A stretch of 37,836 nucleotides of DNA. Source: a virus. The notes under the pieces were generated by a model. The model ran no database searches and was not told the origin of the DNA. It was given only the letters and a program-made list of their open reading frames with translations. The stretch spans positions 1-37,836 of IMG/VR virus record IMGVR_UViG_3300024346_005492, one strand, 5' to 3'. Positions within the stretch are counted from its first letter, which is position 1. Every line of letters starts with the position of its first letter. A program made the position numbers and the translations under genes. Below, piece by piece: positions 25,112-36,282 of the stretch.

Positions 25112-25686
25112 TGTATTTATACGATTATAAAGTAGCCGGGATTGGTGAATTAGCTTGGTATGAAAATGTATATAAAGAAATATGGTTTGACCATGAATAT
25201 TCTCGTTATGGAGTTGAAGTAGAAAAAAATGATATTGTAGTTGATTGTGGAGCTAATGTAGGGTTTTTTACTTTATATGCTTTAAATAAAGGAGCTAAAC
25301 ATGTTTATTCTATTGAATGTGATAATAGAAATATAGAAAGTTTACATTATAATTTAGAAAATACAAATTCAACAATTCTTGAAGGATGGGTAGGATTTGA
25401 AGAAGAGAATTATAATATAAACAGAATGTTAAAAGATTTTAATGTTCCTCATATTGATTTTATAAAAATAGATATTGAACATGGAGAATATCCTCTTTTA
25501 TTTAATACCTCTGATGATATGATAAAACGAATAAATAAATGGGTAATTGAAGTGCATGATATTTGGGAAAATAGTCATAAAATTTTACATTTATTAGAAA
25601 AATTTAGTCGAAATGGATTTGTTATTAATTTTGATCAAATCCATAAAGAAACAAATTTAGCTCTTTTATACGCTAAGAAAAGATGA
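25111..25686 (+). CDS. FkbM-family SAM-dependent methyltransferase
   Basis: The 191-residue product has the class I SAM-binding motif VVDCGANVGFF at 43-53, an acidic residue after the second strand (IECD, Glu69), and FIKIDIEHGEYPLL at 117-130, the DxEG-like block of FkbM methyltransferases. These enzymes commonly O-methylate sugars in polysaccharide and glycan pathways. Here the gene lies between two glycosyltransferase genes and overlaps both neighbours (one and four bases), so methylation or capping of a sugar made by the same cluster is the natural reading. It is short for the family but contains the full core. Confidence 0.87.
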   Translation: MYLYDYKVAGIGELAWYENVYKEIWFDHEYSRYGVEVEKNDIVVDCGANVGFFTLYALNKGAKHVYSIECDNRNIESLHYNLENTNSTILEGWVGFEEENYNINRMLKDFNVPHIDFIKIDIEHGEYPLLFNTSDDMIKRINKWVIEVHDIWENSHKILHLLEKFSRNGFVINFDQIHKETNLALLYAKKR

Positions 25687-26633
25687 GAATTTGCCAAGTA
25701 CATCCAGGTTGCGGAATACCAGTACCACCACCAGATTGGGGAGCTATTGAAAAAATAGTATGGGAATTTCACTGTAATTCTATAAATTTAGGACATGAAT
25801 CTCATATTAAATTTATTAATGAAATTCATTTAGGACAATATGATATTGTTCATTGTCATGTTGCTAATTTAGCTTTAGATTTAGCTCAAAGAGGCATACC
25901 TTATATTTATCAACTACATGACCATCATGTAGTTCATCATGGTAAAGAATCATCAACATACCTTCAGAATTTAGAAGCTATAGATAAATCAATTTTAACA
26001 TTAGTACCCGCTAGATTTTTAGTTGATTATTTTAATCACCCTAAAGTTGAATATTTTTCACATGGAGTTAATACAAATAAGTTTTATCCAACTTCTAAAA
26101 ATGCTCCTGTAACACCAAAATTATTAATGGTAGCGGCTAATGGATTAGGAGGTGATCCTGGATTTGATAGAAAAGGATTTACATATGGATTAGCATTAGC
26201 TATGAAACGTAATTTAAAAATTACTATAGCGGGTCCTAGTTTTAATAAAGCATTTTTTAACCAACATTTGTGGATGTTTAATTATCCTAAACTAAATTTG
26301 GTTTTTGATACTCCTAATAGTAAATTATTAGAATTATATCATAGTCATGATATTTTTATCCATCCAACAATGTTAGAAGCAGGACATCCAAATTTAACAA
26401 TGGTAGAAGCAGCAGCCGCTGGTTTACCTATAATTGCTAATTGGGAATATGAAACTTTATTTCATGGGGCTTGGAGAGCTCCTCGGGATGTGTTTGAAAT
26501 GGAAAGAGGTTTAGATGATATTATAGAAAATTATGATTTTTATAAACAAAGAGCAATCAATACAGGATTAGAATTAGATTGGAAAAATAGAACTAAAGAT
26601 TTAATAAAAGTATATGAAAGAAGTTTTAATTAA
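25683..26633 (+). CDS. GT4-family glycosyltransferase
   Basis: The 316-residue product has a GT-B fold pattern. The N-terminus reads MRICQVHPGCGIPVPPPDWGAIE, with a Gly-rich acceptor-side loop, followed by YDIVHCHVAN and IYQLHDHH. The donor half has KLLMVAANG, a DRKGF segment, ITIAGPS and a C-terminal EAGHPNLTMVEAAAAGLPIIA block. The paired glutamates (Glu232 and Glu242) resemble the EX7E motif of retaining GT4 enzymes but are spaced nine residues apart. It overlaps the methyltransferase by four bases and the next gene by 20. It most likely adds one sugar of the glycan built by this cluster. Donor and acceptor are not identifiable. Confidence 0.85.
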   Translation: MRICQVHPGCGIPVPPPDWGAIEKIVWEFHCNSINLGHESHIKFINEIHLGQYDIVHCHVANLALDLAQRGIPYIYQLHDHHVVHHGKESSTYLQNLEAIDKSILTLVPARFLVDYFNHPKVEYFSHGVNTNKFYPTSKNAPVTPKLLMVAANGLGGDPGFDRKGFTYGLALAMKRNLKITIAGPSFNKAFFNQHLWMFNYPKLNLVFDTPNSKLLELYHSHDIFIHPTMLEAGHPNLTMVEAAAAGLPIIANWEYETLFHGAWRAPRDVFEMERGLDDIIENYDFYKQRAINTGLELDWKNRTKDLIKVYERSFN

Positions 26634-27816
26634 AGAATACAACAACTTAGAACAATTAAATATCCCTTATAAAAGAGAATTTAATAAGTTTTTTATTAAT
26701 TTTATTCAAGGGGCAAAATGTGAAGTTATTGGTGATGAAGAAAGAAGGTATATAGTTAAATTTATCGACCAAAAACACAATAAAGTTATTCATGAAAGTG
26801 AGATTAATAACAATATGTGGACAAAAACTAATATCCAATATTTTGTTAATTGGAAGATAGAGGTTATAGATAAAGAAACAAATGAATTAATATTCGAACA
26901 TAAATTAGACCTTACAAATCAAAAGGTTTATATTCACTTTGAAAGTTCAGCTATTGGAGACACATTAGCATGGTTCCCTCAGGTTGAAGAATTTAGGAAA
27001 AAATATAAATGTAATGTAGTAGTATCTACATTCCATAATGACTGGTTCCAATCTCAATACCCAGAAATAGAATTTGTAGAACCTGGTACTGAAGTATTTA
27101 ATTTATATGCTATGTACTGTATTGGTTGGTTTTATAATGAAGATAGAACAGTTAATTCTGATAAATCTCCTATTGAATTTAAAAGGCATCCTTTGGGTGA
27201 AACTGCTTCCTCTATGTTAGGAGTACCATATAGAGAAATTAAAGCTAAAGTAAATGTTCCGGATAAAATAAAACAAATTGATGAAAAATATGTAGTTATT
27301 GCTCCTCATGCTTCGTCACATGCTAAATATTGGATGTATCCTAAAGGTTGGCAGACTATTATTGATTATTTAAATGAGAAAGGATATAAAGTTTTAATGT
27401 TAACTCATGAACTTTTAGGAGATAAATGGCATGATTCAAAATTAGGAGGTAAATTAACAGGAGTAATTAATAAAACAGGTAACTACCCAATTGAGGATAG
27501 AATGGTTGATATTAAACACGCCGAAGCATTTATTGGAGTAGGTAGTGGATTAAGTTGGATGTCATGGTCGATTGGAACACCAACAATATTAATCTCAGGA
27601 TTTAGTGAACCATATACTGAATTTTTAGACTGTGAACGTATATTTAATTATGACACGAACGTATGTACTGGATGTTTTAACAAACATTGGTTAAATCCAG
27701 GTAATTGGGAGTGGTGTCCTGAACATGAAAATACACCAAGACAATTTGAATGTACTAAAACAATCAAACCAGAACAAGTAATAAAATCAATTAATAAATT
27801 ATTAAAAATACAATGA
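26614..27816 (+). CDS. Autotransporter-type O-heptosyltransferase homologue (BAHT/TibC-like)
   Basis: The 400-residue product matches the plan of bacterial autotransporter heptosyltransferases such as TibC and Aah, which attach heptose to serines of repetitive adhesins. Residues 1 to about 100 form a beta-rich N-terminal domain. HFESSAIGDTLAWFPQVEEFRKK (109-131) contains the GDTxAW motif, whose Asp116 fits the catalytic Asp of TibC. NLYAMYCIGWF (163-173), PHASSHAKYW (231-240), a GW-II-DYL block and FIGVGSGLSWMSWSIGTP (307-323) follow. The C-terminus has four cysteines, 351, 354, 368 and 380, in the context CTGCFN...WCPEH...FECTK, matching the metal-binding finger of this family that holds the oligomer together. 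The start lies 20 bases inside the GT4 gene. Whether it uses ADP-heptose or another donor is unknown. Confidence 0.87.
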   Translation: MKEVLIKEYNNLEQLNIPYKREFNKFFINFIQGAKCEVIGDEERRYIVKFIDQKHNKVIHESEINNNMWTKTNIQYFVNWKIEVIDKETNELIFEHKLDLTNQKVYIHFESSAIGDTLAWFPQVEEFRKKYKCNVVVSTFHNDWFQSQYPEIEFVEPGTEVFNLYAMYCIGWFYNEDRTVNSDKSPIEFKRHPLGETASSMLGVPYREIKAKVNVPDKIKQIDEKYVVIAPHASSHAKYWMYPKGWQTIIDYLNEKGYKVLMLTHELLGDKWHDSKLGGKLTGVINKTGNYPIEDRMVDIKHAEAFIGVGSGLSWMSWSIGTPTILISGFSEPYTEFLDCERIFNYDTNVCTGCFNKHWLNPGNWEWCPEHENTPRQFECTKTIKPEQVIKSINKLLKIQ

Positions 27817-28811
27817 AAGAAACAGTATTAATAACAGGGGTAGCAGGATTATTAGGTAGTCGTTTAGCTGATTGGCTAACTGAAAACCAACCCAATTATC
27901 AAATAATTGGAGTAGATGATCTATCAGGTGGTTATAAAGAAAATGTTAATTATAAAGTAGAATTTTTCAATACTAATATTATAGGAAATAATATTTCTTT
28001 AATATTTGAAAAATATAAACCAACTTATGTATTTCACTTTGCTGCTTATGCTGCTGAAGGATTATCACCTTTTATTAGAACATATAATTATGATAATAAT
28101 TTAAAAGCAACAGCTGCTATTGTAAATGAATGTATTAAACACGATGTAAAACGTTTAGTATTCACTTCTACTTTAGCTGTGTATGGACATGGATATGGTG
28201 GAATATTTAATGAAGATCAAATTCCCGCACCTATTGATCCCTATGGTGTAGCAAAGTATGCTTGTGAAATGGATATTCAAATTGCAGGAGAACAACATGG
28301 ATTAGATTGGTGTATTATTCGTCCACATAACGTTTATGGTGTTAAACAAAACATTTGGGACAAATATCGTAACGTATTAGGAATTTGGATGTATCAACAT
28401 TTAAATAATGAACCAATGACTATTTTTGGAGATGGTACTCAAACTAGAGCATTTAGTTATATTGATGATAATCTAGAACCATTATGGAAATCAGCAATGT
28501 TACCTGAGGCCTCTAAACAAATTATTAATTTAGGAGGTATTGAAGAAATTTCAATTACTGATGCTTGTAAAACATTACAAGAGGTAATTAGTGGTGGAAA
28601 AATTGTTTATAAAGAAGCAAGACATGAAGTTAAACATTCAATTCCAACTTGGCAAAAATCAATTGGTATTTTAGGTTACGAATATAAAACAGATTTAAGG
28701 AAAGGTTTAACAAAAATGTGGGAGTGGGCTCAACAACAACCGATGCGTGAACGATTTGTTTGGGATTCATACGAATTAGATAAAGGTATTTATAGTTTCT
28801 GGAAGGTATAA
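27813..28811 (+). CDS. NAD-dependent nucleotide-sugar epimerase/dehydratase
   Basis: The 332-residue product is an extended short-chain dehydrogenase. GVAGLLG (residues 9-15) is the NAD-binding GxxGxxG motif, VDDLSGG follows at 34-40, HFAAYA lies near 75-80, FTSTLAVYG at 117-125 supplies the active-site Ser/Thr, and Tyr144 and Lys148 form the YxxxK pair. RPHNVYG (170-176) and FGDGTQTRAFSYIDD are typical of UDP-glucose 4-epimerase-like enzymes. It overlaps the heptosyltransferase homologue by four bases (ATGA). It probably makes an activated sugar for the transferases of the same cluster. The exact reaction (4-epimerase, GDP-sugar enzyme or decarboxylase) cannot be told from sequence. Confidence 0.88.
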   Translation: MKETVLITGVAGLLGSRLADWLTENQPNYQIIGVDDLSGGYKENVNYKVEFFNTNIIGNNISLIFEKYKPTYVFHFAAYAAEGLSPFIRTYNYDNNLKATAAIVNECIKHDVKRLVFTSTLAVYGHGYGGIFNEDQIPAPIDPYGVAKYACEMDIQIAGEQHGLDWCIIRPHNVYGVKQNIWDKYRNVLGIWMYQHLNNEPMTIFGDGTQTRAFSYIDDNLEPLWKSAMLPEASKQIINLGGIEEISITDACKTLQEVISGGKIVYKEARHEVKHSIPTWQKSIGILGYEYKTDLRKGLTKMWEWAQQQPMRERFVWDSYELDKGIYSFWKV

Positions 28812-29833: not shown

Positions 29834-31579
29834 ATGGCAACAAATACATTAGTATCTCCTGGCGTACTTCAATTAGAAAACGACCAGTCCTTTATTACGC
29901 AAAACCCCGTAAATGTTGGGGCTGCTATTATTGGCCCTACAGTTAAAGGTCCTGTAGAAGTTCCTACAATTGTTACTTCTTGGAGTGATTACCAAAATAA
30001 ATTTGGTACTACATTTTTAAGTGCTAGTAACATTTATACGTACTTTACTTCAATCGCAGCTTATAACTATTTTAATAATGGTGGAGACACTATGTTAGTA
30101 GCTAGGGTAGCAAGTGGATCATTTACATCTGCTTTTACTTCTGGTTCGGCAAGTAACGGTTCTGCTATTTTAAACGTAAGTGGATCTTTAGCATTACAAT
30201 TAAGTACAATTTCTCAAGGTACGGTAATGAATAGCTCTAGCTCATTAGACGCTAGTGGTTCATTAGCATCAGGTTCTATTAATAACATTAGATGGCAAAT
30301 TGCTAATAATGATACAGCATCTGGAACTTTTAGTTTAATCATTCGCCAAGGAGATGACAATACAAATAATCAAATTGTATTAGAAACATGGACTAACTTG
30401 TCTATGGATACAACAGCTCCTAATTATGTATCTAGAGTAATTGGTGATCAATATAAAGTTTATTCTGGAACTAATGATAACCAAATTGTAGTAAACGGAA
30501 CTTATCCAAATGCTTCAAGATACGTTTATGTATCTTCTGTTTCAACTCCAACTCCATTATATTTTGATAATACGGGTATAGCTAAAAACCAATTTACTGG
30601 TTCTATTCCTGCTAATGCTAGTGGATCATTTGTAGGAGCTACAGGTAACTTAGCAGTAGCTGGAGGAGCTAAATATTATGATGCTATTATTAGCGGTGTA
30701 ACTAATATTCAAGGATTATTATCATCAAGTTATGATAATATGATTAGTTTATTATCAAATCAGGATGATTATCAATTCAACGTATTATTAACCCCAGGTT
30801 TATTTGCTTCTGAAGCTCCTTTAGGATCATCTCAAGTAAATACTATTGTTAACAACACAATGAACCGTGGTGATAATATTTTTGTAGCGGATTTAGTACC
30901 TTATAATTCTACTATCAATGCTGCAACATCTGCTGCAAATGCTAAAAATACTTCATATGCTGCTTCATACTGGCCTTGGGTTCAAACAGTTGATCCTAGT
31001 ACTTCTCAATTAGTATGGGTACCAGCCTCAACGTTAGTAGCCGGTGTATACGCGTATAATGATAACGTAAGTGAGCCTTGGTTCGCTCCCGCTGGTATTA
31101 ACAGAGGTGGTTTATCTACAGTAGTAAGAGCTGAAAAGAAATTAACTCAAGCAAATCGTGATACTTTATATACTAATAAAGTTAATCCAATTGCTACGTT
31201 CCCTGGAACAGGAGTTGTAGTTTACGGACAAAAAACATTACAAACAAAAGCAAGTGCTTTAGATCGTGTAAACGTTCGTCGTTTGTTAATTTCTCTTAAA
31301 TCATACATTGGTCAAATTGCTAATAACTTAGTATTTGAACAAAACACAATTGCTACACGTAACGCATTCTTAGCTCAAGTTAATCCTTACTTAGAATCAG
31401 TTCAGCAACGTCAAGGTTTGTATGCTTTTAAAGTAGTAATGGATTCAAGCAACAACACTCCAGACGTAATCGATAGAAACCAATTAGTAGGACAAATTTA
31501 CTTACAACCAACTAAGACTGCTGAATTCGTTTACTTGAACTTCAACATCTTACCAACAGGAGTATCTTTCCCAGCATAA
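29834..31579 (+). CDS. Tail sheath protein, gp18-like
   Basis: The 581-residue product is a contractile tail sheath. It opens with VSPGVLQLENDQSF and VGAAIIGPTVKGPVEVPT, the typical N-terminal arm and first strands. The C-terminal part has EPWFAPAGINRGGLS near 416-430, the conserved sheath motif, then DRVNVRRLLISLKSYI near 476-491 and a final VYLNFNILPTGVSFPA. The middle part (about 100-300) is Ser/Gly-rich and corresponds to the variable surface-exposed domain. It is somewhat shorter than T4 gp18 (659 residues). The sheath contracts to drive the tube through the host envelope. It is followed by the tube gene, as in T4. Confidence 0.96.
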   Translation: MATNTLVSPGVLQLENDQSFITQNPVNVGAAIIGPTVKGPVEVPTIVTSWSDYQNKFGTTFLSASNIYTYFTSIAAYNYFNNGGDTMLVARVASGSFTSAFTSGSASNGSAILNVSGSLALQLSTISQGTVMNSSSSLDASGSLASGSINNIRWQIANNDTASGTFSLIIRQGDDNTNNQIVLETWTNLSMDTTAPNYVSRVIGDQYKVYSGTNDNQIVVNGTYPNASRYVYVSSVSTPTPLYFDNTGIAKNQFTGSIPANASGSFVGATGNLAVAGGAKYYDAIISGVTNIQGLLSSSYDNMISLLSNQDDYQFNVLLTPGLFASEAPLGSSQVNTIVNNTMNRGDNIFVADLVPYNSTINAATSAANAKNTSYAASYWPWVQTVDPSTSQLVWVPASTLVAGVYAYNDNVSEPWFAPAGINRGGLSTVVRAEKKLTQANRDTLYTNKVNPIATFPGTGVVVYGQKTLQTKASALDRVNVRRLLISLKSYIGQIANNLVFEQNTIATRNAFLAQVNPYLESVQQRQGLYAFKVVMDSSNNTPDVIDRNQLVGQIYLQPTKTAEFVYLNFNILPTGVSFPA

Positions 31580-31622: not shown

Positions 31623-32111
31623 ATGGCAATCTTAGATCCTAACGAAATATTTTTCACCGCCTTTGAACCAAAACAGGCTAACCGATTCATCATGTACGTT
31701 GATGGTTTTCCATCATACATCATTAAAGCAATCTCAGCTGTAACATTTGAACAAGGTGAAGTGGTTCTTAACCATATCAACGTTTACACAAAAGTAAAAG
31801 GTAAAACAAAATGGAGTGATTTAACTATGACTTTATTTGATCCTATTACTCCTTCAGGTGCTCAAGCCGTTATGGAATGGGTACGTTTACACCACGAATC
31901 AGTAACTGGTCGTGATGGTTATAGCGATTTCTATAAGAAAGACTTAACTATCGACGTATTAGGTCCTGTAGGTGATATCGTTTCTGAGTGGGTAATTAAA
32001 GGTGCGTTTATTAAAGGTGGTAACTTCGGTGAATATAACTGGGATACGGAAAATGCGGCTGTTAACTTATCATTAACACTTGGTATGGATTACTGTGTAT
32101 TGAATTTCTAA
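31623..32111 (+). CDS. Tail tube protein, gp19-like
   Basis: The 162-residue product has almost the length of T4 gp19 (163). It begins FFTAFEPKQANRFIMYVDGFPSYIIK, a typical tube-protein N-terminus, and contains VTFEQGEVVLNHINVYTKVKGKTKWSDLTMTLFDP in the middle, followed by WVRLHHESVTGRDGY and a final strand ending MDYCVLNF. It would stack in hexamers inside the sheath and carry the DNA. It lies between the sheath gene and a strong terminator, and the position matches T4 (18-19). Confidence 0.95.
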   Translation: MAILDPNEIFFTAFEPKQANRFIMYVDGFPSYIIKAISAVTFEQGEVVLNHINVYTKVKGKTKWSDLTMTLFDPITPSGAQAVMEWVRLHHESVTGRDGYSDFYKKDLTIDVLGPVGDIVSEWVIKGAFIKGGNFGEYNWDTENAAVNLSLTLGMDYCVLNF

Positions 32112-32209: not shown

Positions 32210-32941
32210 ATGGAAGAAAACAAATTTAAGTTACCTACAGAAGTTGTAGAATTACCATCAAAAGGTTTAATTTATCCAAAAGAAAATCCTTTATCATCGG
32301 GTAAAATTGAAATGAAATATATGACTGCTAGAGAAGAAGATATTCTATCTAATCAGTCTTATATTCAAAAAGGAACAGTTTTAGATAAATTAATGAAGTC
32401 ACTAATTGTAAGTGATATTAATTATGATGATCTAGTTGTAGGTGATAAAAATGCTATTATGGTAGCAGCTCGTGTATTAGGTTATGGTAAAGATTATTCT
32501 TTTAAATATGGTGATGAATCATATACTGTAGATCTTTCCCTATTAAATAATAGAGAATTAGACGAATCTTTATACTCAGCTGGAGTAAATGAATTTACAT
32601 TTATCTTACCTAATTCACAAACCAAACTTACTTTTAAATTGTTAACTCATAATGATGAGAAAAAAATTGTAGCTGAATTAGAAGGTTTAAAAAAGATTAA
32701 TAAAGATAATTCTCCTGAATTAACTACTAGATTAAAATATATGATTACTTCTGTTGGAGGTGATAGAGATACTAAAACTATTCGTGATTTTGTAGATAAT
32801 TATTTATTAGCTAGAGATTCAAAAGCATTAAGAGATTATATTAGAGCAATCCAACCAGATGTTAATTTAAACTTTACTACAGATAGCGGTGAGGAGGTCG
32901 CTATCCCTATTAATATCAACTTTTTTTGGCCTGACGCTTAA
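32210..32941 (+). CDS. T4-type baseplate protein / possible tail assembly chaperone
   Basis: The 243-residue product has the N-terminal signature of the T4 baseplate (gp26-like) family: VELPSKGLIYP at 13-23, GKIEMKYMTAREEDIL at 31-46, then a GTVLDKLMKSLI helix. The C-terminus carries TTDSGEEVAIPININFFWPD, a strand-rich ending typical of the family. It lies between the tube gene and the tape measure, the place where many tailed phages encode tail assembly chaperones. The last codons run over a seven-T stretch (32921-32927) and the next frame opens in the overlap, so a longer fused product is possible. I am sure of the family resemblance, less sure whether it acts as a hub part or as a chaperone. 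Confidence 0.75.
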   Translation: MEENKFKLPTEVVELPSKGLIYPKENPLSSGKIEMKYMTAREEDILSNQSYIQKGTVLDKLMKSLIVSDINYDDLVVGDKNAIMVAARVLGYGKDYSFKYGDESYTVDLSLLNNRELDESLYSAGVNEFTFILPNSQTKLTFKLLTHNDEKKIVAELEGLKKINKDNSPELTTRLKYMITSVGGDRDTKTIRDFVDNYLLARDSKALRDYIRAIQPDVNLNFTTDSGEEVAIPININFFWPDA

Positions 32942-33209
32942 TATCGCTCCTCAAGTTAGAGTTAATTTATTTACCCAAATTCATGAAATTTGTTTTCATG
33001 GACAAGGAGGTTATGACTGGGATACAGTATATAATATGCCTACATGGTTAAGGAAATTTACATTTCATAAAATCCAAGAACATTACACTAAACAGAATGA
33101 ACAAATGGAAAAAGCTAACGGTGACCAAAAAACTACTTTAATAGATTCTACAGGTAAAGTCCAATCTCCAGAATTTGCTAAAAATAAAAAACCAACAAGT
33201 TATAAATAA
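32889..33209 (+). CDS. Downstream overlapping frame, hub-assembly/chaperone-like
   Basis: This frame holds a conserved-looking core, FTQIHEICFHGQGGYDWDTVYNMPTWLRKFTFHKIQEHYTKQNE, that I associate with a small protein encoded next to gp26-like genes in T4-like phages. There is no ATG ahead of the core. The only usable start is a GTG at the left coordinate, 53 bases inside the upstream gene, which is odd because every other start here is ATG. The residues encoded before the T run therefore may not be real. Either translation starts at the GTG or another non-ATG codon, or ribosomes slip (+1 or -2) on the T run at 32921 and fuse it to the upstream protein. The C-terminus is Lys-rich and probably disordered. 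Confidence 0.65.
   Translation: MRRSLSLLISTFFGLTLNIAPQVRVNLFTQIHEICFHGQGGYDWDTVYNMPTWLRKFTFHKIQEHYTKQNEQMEKANGDQKTTLIDSTGKVQSPEFAKNKKPTSYK
32921..32927 (+). other. Seven-T run, possible ribosomal frameshift site
   Basis: Context AAC-TTT-TTT-TGG in the upstream frame, four codons before its TAA. The downstream frame is reached by a +1 or -2 shift. Tail-gene frameshifts are known in other phages just before the tape measure. I see no strong pseudoknot, and the run could also be a sequencing or assembly length error. Confidence 0.4.
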
Positions 33210-33243: not shown

Positions 33244-36012
33244 ATGGCTGCAACCAACCCTAATATTGAGGATTTAAAAAAACAAATTGAAGACCTAAAA
33301 AAAGTATATAAACAATTGACTGGGAAACCAGTTACAATTGTTGATGCAAGTACAATTAGAGGAATTCAAGATGCTCAAGATGCTATTAGGGTTTTAACTG
33401 ATGCTATTGACACAGCCTCAGAAAGAGCATCAAGATTTGGAGATGGATTTGCTAGTGTTCAACAAGATCTTCAAGCAATTGTTGGTGAATTACAAAAAAG
33501 CAATAATGCTCAAAATTTAGCAACAAAAGCTTTAAAAGGTACCCAAGATATAGCTCAAAAATTAAAGTATGATCAACAAGATATTAGTAGATTATCTTTA
33601 AAAGAATTAGAACAATATAAAGAAAAATTAAAACAACAACAATCCGAAGCTAAATTTCAAGCAGAAATTTTAGCAAGAGAAAAAGGTATTGTTGATATTA
33701 ATCGTGTAAATCTTCGTTTCCGAAGAGATCTTACGGATAGTGAAAGATCTATATTAGAAGGTTTAAAAGCAGGACTACCAGTATATGAGGATATTAATAC
33801 TCTTTTAGAAGGTAGAATTAAAAAAGAAAAAGATATCAATAACCTTATGGGAATTGGTGGTGCGGCTGTTGAAGGTATAGATAAAGCTTTAGAGGAAATT
33901 GGATTTGGTGGTTTAAGTAAAGCTTTAGGTCTTGAAGAAGTTAAAGAGCGAATGAAAGAAGTCGCTGAAGAAATTCAAGAAGCAGGTCATGATACTGATA
34001 GTTTTGCTAATAAATTTAAAGTATTAAAAGCAGGAATTAGTGAGGCAGGAAATAATTTAATATCAACTTTAAAAGACCCCCTTACAGCAACACTTTTTGT
34101 AGTTACTGAACTAGTTGAAGCTTTAAAAGATGTAGATGCTGGAGCTGGTAAAATGGCTAAAAACTTTGGTGTTAGTTTCCATGAAGCTTTACATTTAAAA
34201 GGTGAAATGAACTCAATTGCGGGTTCTACATCTGATGTTAATGTAACTACTGGCAAATTAGTAGAAAGTTTTACAACATTAAATAATGCTTTTGGAACAT
34301 TTGCTTCTTTAAGTGAAGAATCATTAGTAACATTTACTAAATTAACAAAACAAGCTGGTCTTAGTGAAGAAGCTGCTATTGCTTTAACTAAAACCTCTTT
34401 ATTAAATAATAAAACTGTTGAGGATACAACTTCTGAATATCTGGGACAAGTTGAAGCCTTTAAAGCTCAAACAGGTTCTGCTATTAATACAAAATTAGTA
34501 TTAGAAGACATAGGAAAAATATCAGCAGCAACCGCTTTAACATTAGGAAATACACCCAAAGCATTAGCTGAAGCTGCTGTTACGGCTCGTTCTTTAGGTA
34601 TGTCTATAGAACAAGTAAACCAAGCAGCAAGTCAATTACTTAATTTTGAATCATCTATTACCTCAGAATTAGAAGCTGAATTATTAACTGGTAAAGATTT
34701 AAATTTAGAAGAAGCAAGACGAGCGGCTTTAAATGGTGATATAGCTACTTTATCTAAAGAAATTTCTAAAAATATAGGCACAGCTGCGGAATTTAGTAAA
34801 ATGAATGTTATACAAAAAGAAGCATTAGCTAAATCAGTAGGTATGTCTCGTGAAGATTTAGCTAAAACCTTACAAGATCAAGCAGTTTTAAATAAATTAA
34901 AAGGTGTTGAAGGTAAAACTGCTAAAGAAAAATTTGATAATTTAGTTAAAGAGGTAGGTTTAGAAAAAGCTAAAAAAGAATTAGGAGATGAAGCCTTAGC
35001 AAATCAATTTGCTGGTCAAAACGTAGCTGAAAGGTTTGGTGCTACAATGGATAAAGTTAAAGAAATTTTTATTTCATTAGCCGAACCATTACTACCAGTA
35101 CTAGAAATATTTACAGATATATTTAAAATTGTGGGTCCTATTGTTGGTTTAATAGGGAAAATGGTTCATTATGCCGCTGAATTAGGTAAACCGTTACTTA
35201 TGGTTTATGGTGTGTATAAAGGAATCCAAGCAGCCCAATCAGCAAGTTTAGTAATAAGTCGCTCAGCATCTATTATAGAAGCAGGTAAATTAACTTTATT
35301 ACAACAACAATTAGCTACAGAAGGCGAATTAAGTTTATTAGACAAAATAACACTTGGTTTAGCCCAAGCTAAATTGTTTATATTTAATCAACAATATAGA
35401 ACTAAAGTATTAGAAGCAACCCAAGAAAAAATTATTGGTGGGCTTACAAGAATTTCATTAGTTATTCAAGAAGCTTATCAAGCTGTTAAGTTAAGAGGTT
35501 TAGCTACTACAGCAAGAGATATAGCCATGCAAACTGCTCTTAAAGCAAAACAATTAGGAGGATTTTTAGTAGATGTAGGAAAGTTTGCAATTAAATCAGC
35601 AATTGCTGTTGCTGGAATTCCAATTGTAGGTCCTATATTAGCTATTGGAGCTATTGCCGCTGCTCTTTCTGGTGGTATGGCTTTATATAATAAATTTAAA
35701 GGTAATGACGTTGTATCTGGTGGGTATGGAAAACGTACGTTAATGGCACCTGAAGGCGCTATTGCTTTAAATGACAAAGATACAATAATAGCAGGAACCG
35801 ATTTAGGAGGTAAAAATAAATCTAAAAACAATACAGGTGAAGCATCATCTCAAACCAACACTGCTTCTTCTATTGATATAACACCATTAATTGATAAAAT
35901 GGCTGCTGTAGAAGGATTATTATCTCAAATATTACAAAAAGAAACTAACATCTATATGGATTCAACTAAAGTTGGAACTGGATTTGCTATGAGCACATCT
36001 AAAATTCAATAA
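33244..36012 (+). CDS. Tail tape-measure protein
   Basis: The 922-residue product has the make-up of a tape measure. The first 270 or so residues are long amphipathic coiled coils (IEDLKKQIEDLKKVY, ELEQYKEKLKQQQSEAK). A central helical part follows with LAEAAVTARSLGMSIEQVNQA near 444-464 and SREDLAKTLQDQAVL near 537-551. Two hydrophobic stretches lie at about 606-640 (LAEPLLPVLEIF...IVGPIVGLIG) and 786-816 (AVAGIPIVGPILAIGAIAAAL). The C-terminus has GGYGKRTLMAPEGAIALNDKDTIIAG, a tail seen in other marine phage tape measures. It sets tail length inside the tube and leaves first on injection. At roughly 0.15 nm per residue it predicts a tail near 140 nm. It is the last large gene before an unknown structural protein. 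Confidence 0.9.
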   Translation: MAATNPNIEDLKKQIEDLKKVYKQLTGKPVTIVDASTIRGIQDAQDAIRVLTDAIDTASERASRFGDGFASVQQDLQAIVGELQKSNNAQNLATKALKGTQDIAQKLKYDQQDISRLSLKELEQYKEKLKQQQSEAKFQAEILAREKGIVDINRVNLRFRRDLTDSERSILEGLKAGLPVYEDINTLLEGRIKKEKDINNLMGIGGAAVEGIDKALEEIGFGGLSKALGLEEVKERMKEVAEEIQEAGHDTDSFANKFKVLKAGISEAGNNLISTLKDPLTATLFVVTELVEALKDVDAGAGKMAKNFGVSFHEALHLKGEMNSIAGSTSDVNVTTGKLVESFTTLNNAFGTFASLSEESLVTFTKLTKQAGLSEEAAIALTKTSLLNNKTVEDTTSEYLGQVEAFKAQTGSAINTKLVLEDIGKISAATALTLGNTPKALAEAAVTARSLGMSIEQVNQAASQLLNFESSITSELEAELLTGKDLNLEEARRAALNGDIATLSKEISKNIGTAAEFSKMNVIQKEALAKSVGMSREDLAKTLQDQAVLNKLKGVEGKTAKEKFDNLVKEVGLEKAKKELGDEALANQFAGQNVAERFGATMDKVKEIFISLAEPLLPVLEIFTDIFKIVGPIVGLIGKMVHYAAELGKPLLMVYGVYKGIQAAQSASLVISRSASIIEAGKLTLLQQQLATEGELSLLDKITLGLAQAKLFIFNQQYRTKVLEATQEKIIGGLTRISLVIQEAYQAVKLRGLATTARDIAMQTALKAKQLGGFLVDVGKFAIKSAIAVAGIPIVGPILAIGAIAAALSGGMALYNKFKGNDVVSGGYGKRTLMAPEGAIALNDKDTIIAGTDLGGKNKSKNNTGEASSQTNTASSIDITPLIDKMAAVEGLLSQILQKETNIYMDSTKVGTGFAMSTSKIQ

Positions 36013-36036: not shown

Positions 36037-36282
36037 ATGGGACTCTTAGACAAATTAACAAAAGACGGTTCACTATTAACCGCTATGGATGGTAAAAAAC
36101 CTTTAGAATACGATAAAGTACCCAACTATCCAGAACAATTAAAAAAATCACAATTAGATTTAGATGGTAAAAAGCCATTAGAATATGATAGACAAACTGT
36201 TCAAATTGCAAGTTTACCTTATTCACAATTAGATTTAGACGGTAAAAACCCAAACAAATATTTAGATAATCCTCCAAAGTAA
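36037..36282 (+). CDS. Small three-repeat protein, 81 residues
   Basis: The product contains three copies of a short unit: AMDGKKPLEYD (16-26), LDLDGKKPLEYD (40-51) and LDLDGKNPNKYLD near the C-terminus. The second and third copies are preceded by a similar lead (KKSQ and PYSQ). It begins MGLLDKLTKDG and has no membrane segment. I do not recognise a function. It has its own upstream box, and its stop overlaps the next start (TAATG), so it is probably made together with the following structural-type protein. A short linear peptide that binds along the tail or baseplate is a guess. Confidence 0.65.
   Translation: MGLLDKLTKDGSLLTAMDGKKPLEYDKVPNYPEQLKKSQLDLDGKKPLEYDRQTVQIASLPYSQLDLDGKNPNKYLDNPPK

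Follow-up and report, generated by a model that had tools for sequence, protein, structure and literature searches.

Programmed +1 frameshifting at a sense codon very probably produces the long form of a T4-type phage tail assembly chaperone

Tail assembly chaperones of the lambda G/GT kind bind both the tape measure and the tube proteins, are absent from the virion, and are made as a short and a long form in a set ratio. Programmed −2 frameshifting has been reported for phage Mu. In T4-like phages, Vladimirov, Gautam and Davidson are said to have found in 2022 that frameshifting is conserved in several groups, T4 itself reportedly using genes 26 and 51. According to PMC5009743, frameshifted tail chaperones encoded between the tube and tape measure genes are a known kind from which T4 is excepted, and the chaperone of the haloarchaeal myovirus HSTV-2 very likely uses a +1 shift. 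PMC12846349 describes −1 poly-T signals in T4-like chaperone (TAC-N) genes and attributes their discovery to Vladimirov 2022 (Virology 566:9-15). Since frameshifting in T4-like chaperones has by this account been published, the locus described here, with a probable +1 shift at YTT_TGG, is a variant rather than a new kind. The original prediction that the locus links T4-type and lambda-type chaperones was the right idea, but it had reportedly been proposed in 2022. Among the open-licence PubMed Central papers searched, none described +1 shifting in a chaperone of the T4 type, which is a weak negative.

The locus lies in the window, the whole 37,836-nt stretch of virus record IMGVR_UViG_3300024346_005492, and its features are collected in Table 1. 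Its first product belongs to the same family (PF12322/phrog_150) as T4 gp26 and gp51, with a putative +1 shift at YTT_TGG where PMC12846349 describes −1 poly-T signals. In the cyanophages S-PM2, P-SSM2 and syn9, gp26 ends in Phe-Phe plus one residue, and a homologous C-domain, with the annotated short gp51, lies in another frame; 61/61 unique cyanophage-like junctions are −1 at T_TTT_TTC, against +1 in the window. T4 genes 26 and 51 encode the short and long forms of the same family; they are separate genes on opposite strands that need no frameshift. Lambda G/GT resembles the window in gene position and in having a short and an extended product (PMC5009743), but it shifts −1 rather than +1 and its sequence family differs. 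In RF2 (prfB), the P-site YUU of CUU_UGA re-pairs one base forward, and the site CTT_TGG of the Flavobacterium phage immuto would allow the same re-pairing (PMC8710568). However, RF2 has a stop codon in the A site, whereas the window has a sense codon and no SD-like element just upstream. There is also a resemblance between the motif TTC_TTT_CGT of Streptococcus phage GXN1 and UCC_UUU_CGU, at which influenza PA-X is made by a +1 shift.

Table 1. Positions of the chaperone locus and its neighbours in the window
Feature	Position	Strand	Evidence or remark
Sheath gene	29834-31579		Precedes tube in the window
Tail tube gene (gp19-like), upstream neighbour	31623..32111	+	phrog_4542, E 3.5e-22
TAC-N, gp26-like short tail assembly chaperone (putative), 243 aa	32210..32941	+	Stop TAA 32939-32941
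Inverted repeat GATAGCG/CGCTATC with SD-like loop	32882..32905	+	Clade-specific
GTG, sole ATG/GTG/TTG upstream of the core in the +1 frame	32889..32891	+	Not conserved
Candidate shift site TTT TTT TGG	32921..32929	+	In-frame YTT_TGG in 141/145 unique junctions
TAC-C domain of 93 codons in the +1 frame, with its stop at 33207-33209	32928..33209	+	Selection, profile comparison
Tape measure gene, downstream neighbour	33244..36012	+	phrog_2854, E 0.0021

Relative to the gp26-like frame, the second frame lies at +1, and it is open from 32871 to 33206. The two frames share an open overlap of 71 bases, or of 53 bases (32889-32941) when measured from GTG 32889, because this GTG is the first listed start of the second frame. 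In frame 0 the overlap reads TTT TTT TGG CCT GAC GCT TAA, with TTTTTTT at 32921-32927. Before the conserved core the +1 frame has no ATG in the window, the next one being the internal Met of YNMP. The 53-base overlap, the T run within it and the lone GTG ahead of the core had all been described in the original prediction and were confirmed, as was the need for a shift of +1 or −2, which follows from the second frame being +1 relative to the first; comparison with relatives, given below, picks +1. Joined at the site, TAC-N and TAC-C would form a TAC-NC of 332 aa.

Gene order is constant. The tube gene lies upstream in 61/61 unique loci with room for it and a relative of the tape measure gene downstream in 54/54, which is the placement of the lambda G/GT kind; the downstream counterpart in immuto carries the annotation 'tail tape measure protein'. 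Ahead of the tail genes of the window, at 25683-28811, stand three ORFs that we take to resemble two glycosyltransferases and a nucleotide-sugar epimerase. A small ORF of 81 aa at 36037-36282 nearly repeats LDGKKPLEYD two to three times, and no PHROG match was found for it.

To assess conservation, the best 80 of 595 loci from a first search were compared with the window (81 sequences, of which L016 ends ahead of the stop). The second frame was +1 in 80/80 scorable sequences (79 of the best 80 of 595 loci, and the window), and T7GGCC was invariant in the 63/63 distinct full-length junction segments of this set. Because one of the six peptides used in that search (PININFFW) spans the shift site, searches were repeated from Microcystis phage Mel-JY01 (80 loci) and from the uncultured phage LR756508 (20 loci) with peptides that do not cover it, and the same picture was returned. 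After removal of identical ones, 209 junctions remained: 91 nearest to the window, 43 to Mel-JY01 and 10 to LR756508, with 61 of the cyanophage-like group and 4 others. Placed by similarity, the second domain was at +1 in 89/91, 43/43 and 10/10 junctions of the first three families, together 142/144, and 61/61 cyanophage-like junctions had it at −1. The similarity search with the C-domain gave no match for the 4 other junctions: SP-15, GXN1, L204 and RM378.

An in-frame YTT_TGG was present in 88/91, 43/43 and 9/10 junctions of these families and in RM378 (1/1), giving 141/145 unique junctions, a count that includes L197, whose second domain is a separate gene. The four junctions lacking it are L172 and L174 (TTT_TAC), L192, and LR756508 (TTT_CTA). 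The T run is not the essential element: with TTC_TTT_TGG in a sister clade (nine LR756508-family junctions) and TTT_CTT_TGG in immuto, what the sites share is the core YTT_TGG. In SP-15, LIS04 and GXN1 the exact shift site is ambiguous, since NCC_CGA is also common to them. The conserved frame relation that the original prediction called for was thus found in nearly all junctions of the three families, while its conserved T run held for the invariant T7GGCC segments of the best 80 of 595 loci and not as a necessary element.

Whether the second frame is coding was judged from substitution rates. Both frames are under purifying selection: past the first stop, median dN/dS in the +1 frame was 0.27, compared with 0.24 for the first frame (TAC-N), from 600 random pairs per frame drawn from 84 loci (440 and 538 usable values). 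In 84/84 loci the +1 frame is closed by a stop no more than 150 nt ahead of the site. In 141 junctions, starts were sought between this upstream +1 stop and the seventh codon after the site. Any ATG, GTG or TTG was lacking in 47/141, GTG or TTG alone occurred in 41/141, and an ATG occurred in 53/141 at varying positions. The 141 junctions therefore have no private start in common; GTG 32889 was judged not to be a start. A CTG start in the +1 frame was considered and rejected, as the base following GGCCT varies in the sister family. In short, the second frame runs past the stop, is conserved and under purifying selection, and has no conserved start, with L192 and L197 as exceptions.

In these two loci (L192, 1486-2220 and downstream; L197, 1483-2217 and downstream), the second domain follows as a separate −1-frame gene whose own ATG lies 2 and 5 bases past the first stop, respectively, and L192 has also lost the YTT_TGG site. 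They look like a lineage that left frameshifting. The lack of a conserved ATG, which the original prediction had proposed to check, was borne out, and a separate ATG-started gene for the second domain was found in these 2/91 unique family junctions. In public annotation, the C-domain is cut to a hypothetical protein of 36-39 aa (L082:5351-5461 and L085:5309-5428), which starts within the conserved core. Annotated C-terminal products are gp038 of 36 aa in immuto and gp046 of 39 aa in SP-15, and there is none in LIS04.

By profile match, TAC-N falls in the T4 gp26/gp51 family (PF12322, phrog_150). Window TAC-N matches phrog_150 (baseplate hub) at E 2e-8, as T4 gp26 and gp51 also do. PF12322 gave no match on window TAC-N at E up to 0.1 and matched the isolated relatives SP-15, GXN1 and RM378 at E 1.5e-28 to 2.4e-9. 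T4 gp26 (208 aa) and gp51 (249 aa) both carry PF12322, with about 45 extra C-terminal residues in gp51. In hhalign, TAC-C of the three +1 families aligned with the cyanophage −1 product at P 85%, 94% and 90% (E 6e-6 to 2e-7, each E-value here being for a single comparison), and the cyanophage product with the T4 gp51 C-terminus at P 97% (E 2.5e-11). Directly, window-family TAC-C matched gp51 weakly (P 2.6%, E 0.018). All controls with reversed input, run against the cyanophage product and gp51, stayed below 0.5%. The link of window TAC-C to gp51 would therefore pass through the cyanophages. The annotation of KVP40 had already noted that the next gene resembles the gp51 C-terminus.

Structure prediction was also carried out. 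The AlphaFold model of TAC-N (pLDDT 91) had as its best two of 825 PDB chains YqbN (Z 5.8, 89 residues, 5.1 Å) and the HK97 tail assembly chaperone (Z 4.6, 80 residues, 4.1 Å), matches that span TAC-N residues 1-94 with weak Z values. Foldseek alone found nothing significant with this model (2ob9, E 1.9), and a TAC-N profile search of solved structures returned nothing credible. The lone C-domain was modeled as helical (pLDDT 78), and a fold search with it gave no meaningful match. By analogy with the known systems, TAC-N and TAC-NC may act as a tail assembly chaperone.

In two bacterial genomes (L305:859-1623 and L306:859-1623), sheath and tube genes are followed by one ORF in which PF12322 and DUF6760 are in frame (L305: E 2.5e-9 and E 1.5e-6, respectively), joined at ...SFFM (TCA TTT TTT ATG). 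This arrangement suggests that DUF6760 is the chaperone C-domain, fused in these loci. DUF6760 matches 10/28 phage C-domains weakly (best E 0.0028), and the direct profile match between the L305/L306 tail and phage C-domains was weak as well (P under 8%).

The observations are two overlapping frames, both conserved and under selection, a shared site, a constant gene order and homology with the cyanophage form. From these we infer that one T4-type chaperone gene very probably yields both TAC-N (243 aa) and, by programmed +1 frameshifting, TAC-NC (332 aa). This agrees with the programmed frameshift before the tape measure that was originally predicted, and it remains the best explanation of the locus. 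As to efficiency, the majority of ribosomes would terminate at 32939 and release TAC-N. In a minority, tRNA-Phe would sit on the second TTT while the ribosome pauses for tRNA-Trp to fill the A site at TGG (32927-32929). The P-site tRNA on TTT 32924-32926 would then re-pair with TTT 32925-32927, and decoding would resume at GGC 32928-32930. In immuto, the +1 shift moves tRNA-Leu from CUU onto UUU. By analogy with lambda gpG/gpGT, TAC-N would serve to coat the tape measure protein, and tube subunits would be brought in through the C-domain.

The site differs from two known types. The RF2 type has a stop codon in the A site, where TGG stands in 141/145 unique junctions, and a −1 slippery heptamer (X_XXY_YYZ, such as T_TTT_TTC) does not suit the +1 frame of the window. 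In 60 loci each, scored against mononucleotide shuffles, RNA folding downstream and upstream of the site gave mean z values of −0.98 and −0.85, and an intragenic control stretch gave −1.10; since the flanks do not differ from the control, there is no stimulator signal in the folding test. No SD-like element was found just upstream of the site in the window. The inverted repeat GATAGCG/CGCTATC lies 15 bases upstream of the T run, and 6 or 7 of its 7 pairs together with GGAGG occur in 8/82 distinct segments; in L008 one pair is altered on both sides, from C-G to T-A. As a common element of the mechanism this hairpin was rejected, because it is confined to a small clade.

A programmed −2 shift, in which tRNA-Phe slips two bases back in T7 to give FFFGL rather than FFGL, fits the frame arithmetic, and T7 permits the two-base re-pairing in most of the window family. 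However, nine TTC_TTT_TGG relatives, GXN1 (TTC_TTT_CGT) and LR756508 (AAC_TTT_CTA) hold the same frame relation as the window, and there a −2 slip would place tRNA-Phe on UCU or ACU, whereas a +1 slip places it on UUU or UUC. Because these relatives cannot re-pair two bases back, a single mechanism favors +1, and −2 is very unlikely. The same relatives bear on transcriptional slippage, which would yield mRNAs one base shorter from the seven-T homopolymer that the window shares with most members of its family. The longest T run is 4 in the TTC_TTT_TGG clade and 3 in immuto, GXN1 and LR756508, and the frame relation is nonetheless unchanged, which argues against slippage of the polymerase and makes it highly improbable.

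Homopolymers are prone to sequencing error, and in that case, or in that of a pseudogene, the true gene would be single-frame, as the original prediction had allowed for. This is refuted by recurrence of the relation in 142/144 unique junctions of three families and in isolate genomes, with purifying selection in both frames, and its probability is negligible. It is very unlikely, too, that the second frame is a separate gene whose translation starts internally or is coupled to termination at the first stop. An own-ATG second gene does follow just past the first stop in L192 and L197, and an ATG happens to occur in the +1 frame of 53/141 junctions. But 47/141 have no ATG, GTG or TTG, several of these with a +1 stop directly before the site, and no start is conserved; the conserved ATG inside the core would truncate the domain, just as public annotation does.

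The direction of the shift can be followed across the wider family. Assigned by the longer open frame and not by similarity, named and reference records with +1 are immuto, Mel-JY01, LR756508, SP-15, LIS04, GXN1 and RM378, and those with −1 (n = 14) are S-PM2, P-SSM2, syn9, KVP40, CC2, Moby, IG49, OC, Atu_ph07, PA5oct, K397, CM1, LR756511 and contig L204. T_TTT_TTC is present in the printed junction of 10/14 of the −1 cases, and −1 and +1 shifts would both act at a Phe-Phe junction. On a tree of 55 first-frame (TAC-N) proteins, in which several long rows have unsure placement and L192 is labeled +1 despite its separate gene, the directions cluster, with 2 changes among the +1 and −1 rows.

It is fairly probable that phages of Bacteroidota, and probably also those of cyanobacteria, share a conserved +1 shift at YTT_TGG that works with a waiting sense codon alone, lacking a stop codon, an SD-like element next to the site and structured RNA downstream. 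Together with the cyanophage −1 form, the two genes of T4, the separate gene of L192 and L197 and the in-frame fusion of L305 and L306, one family would then have taken five routes to the long form at the same Phe-Phe junction, and the direction of the shift would have been reversed at least once.

The results support the view of gp51 as the long form of gp26. They also imply that annotated genomes of this group carry a truncated or missing C-terminal product, as in immuto, SP-15 and LIS04. The family would provide a natural set of homologues in which almost identical codons (TTT TTT TGG versus TTT TTC) call for a +1 slip in one case and a −1 slip in the other, and therefore the determinants of direction may be compared directly.
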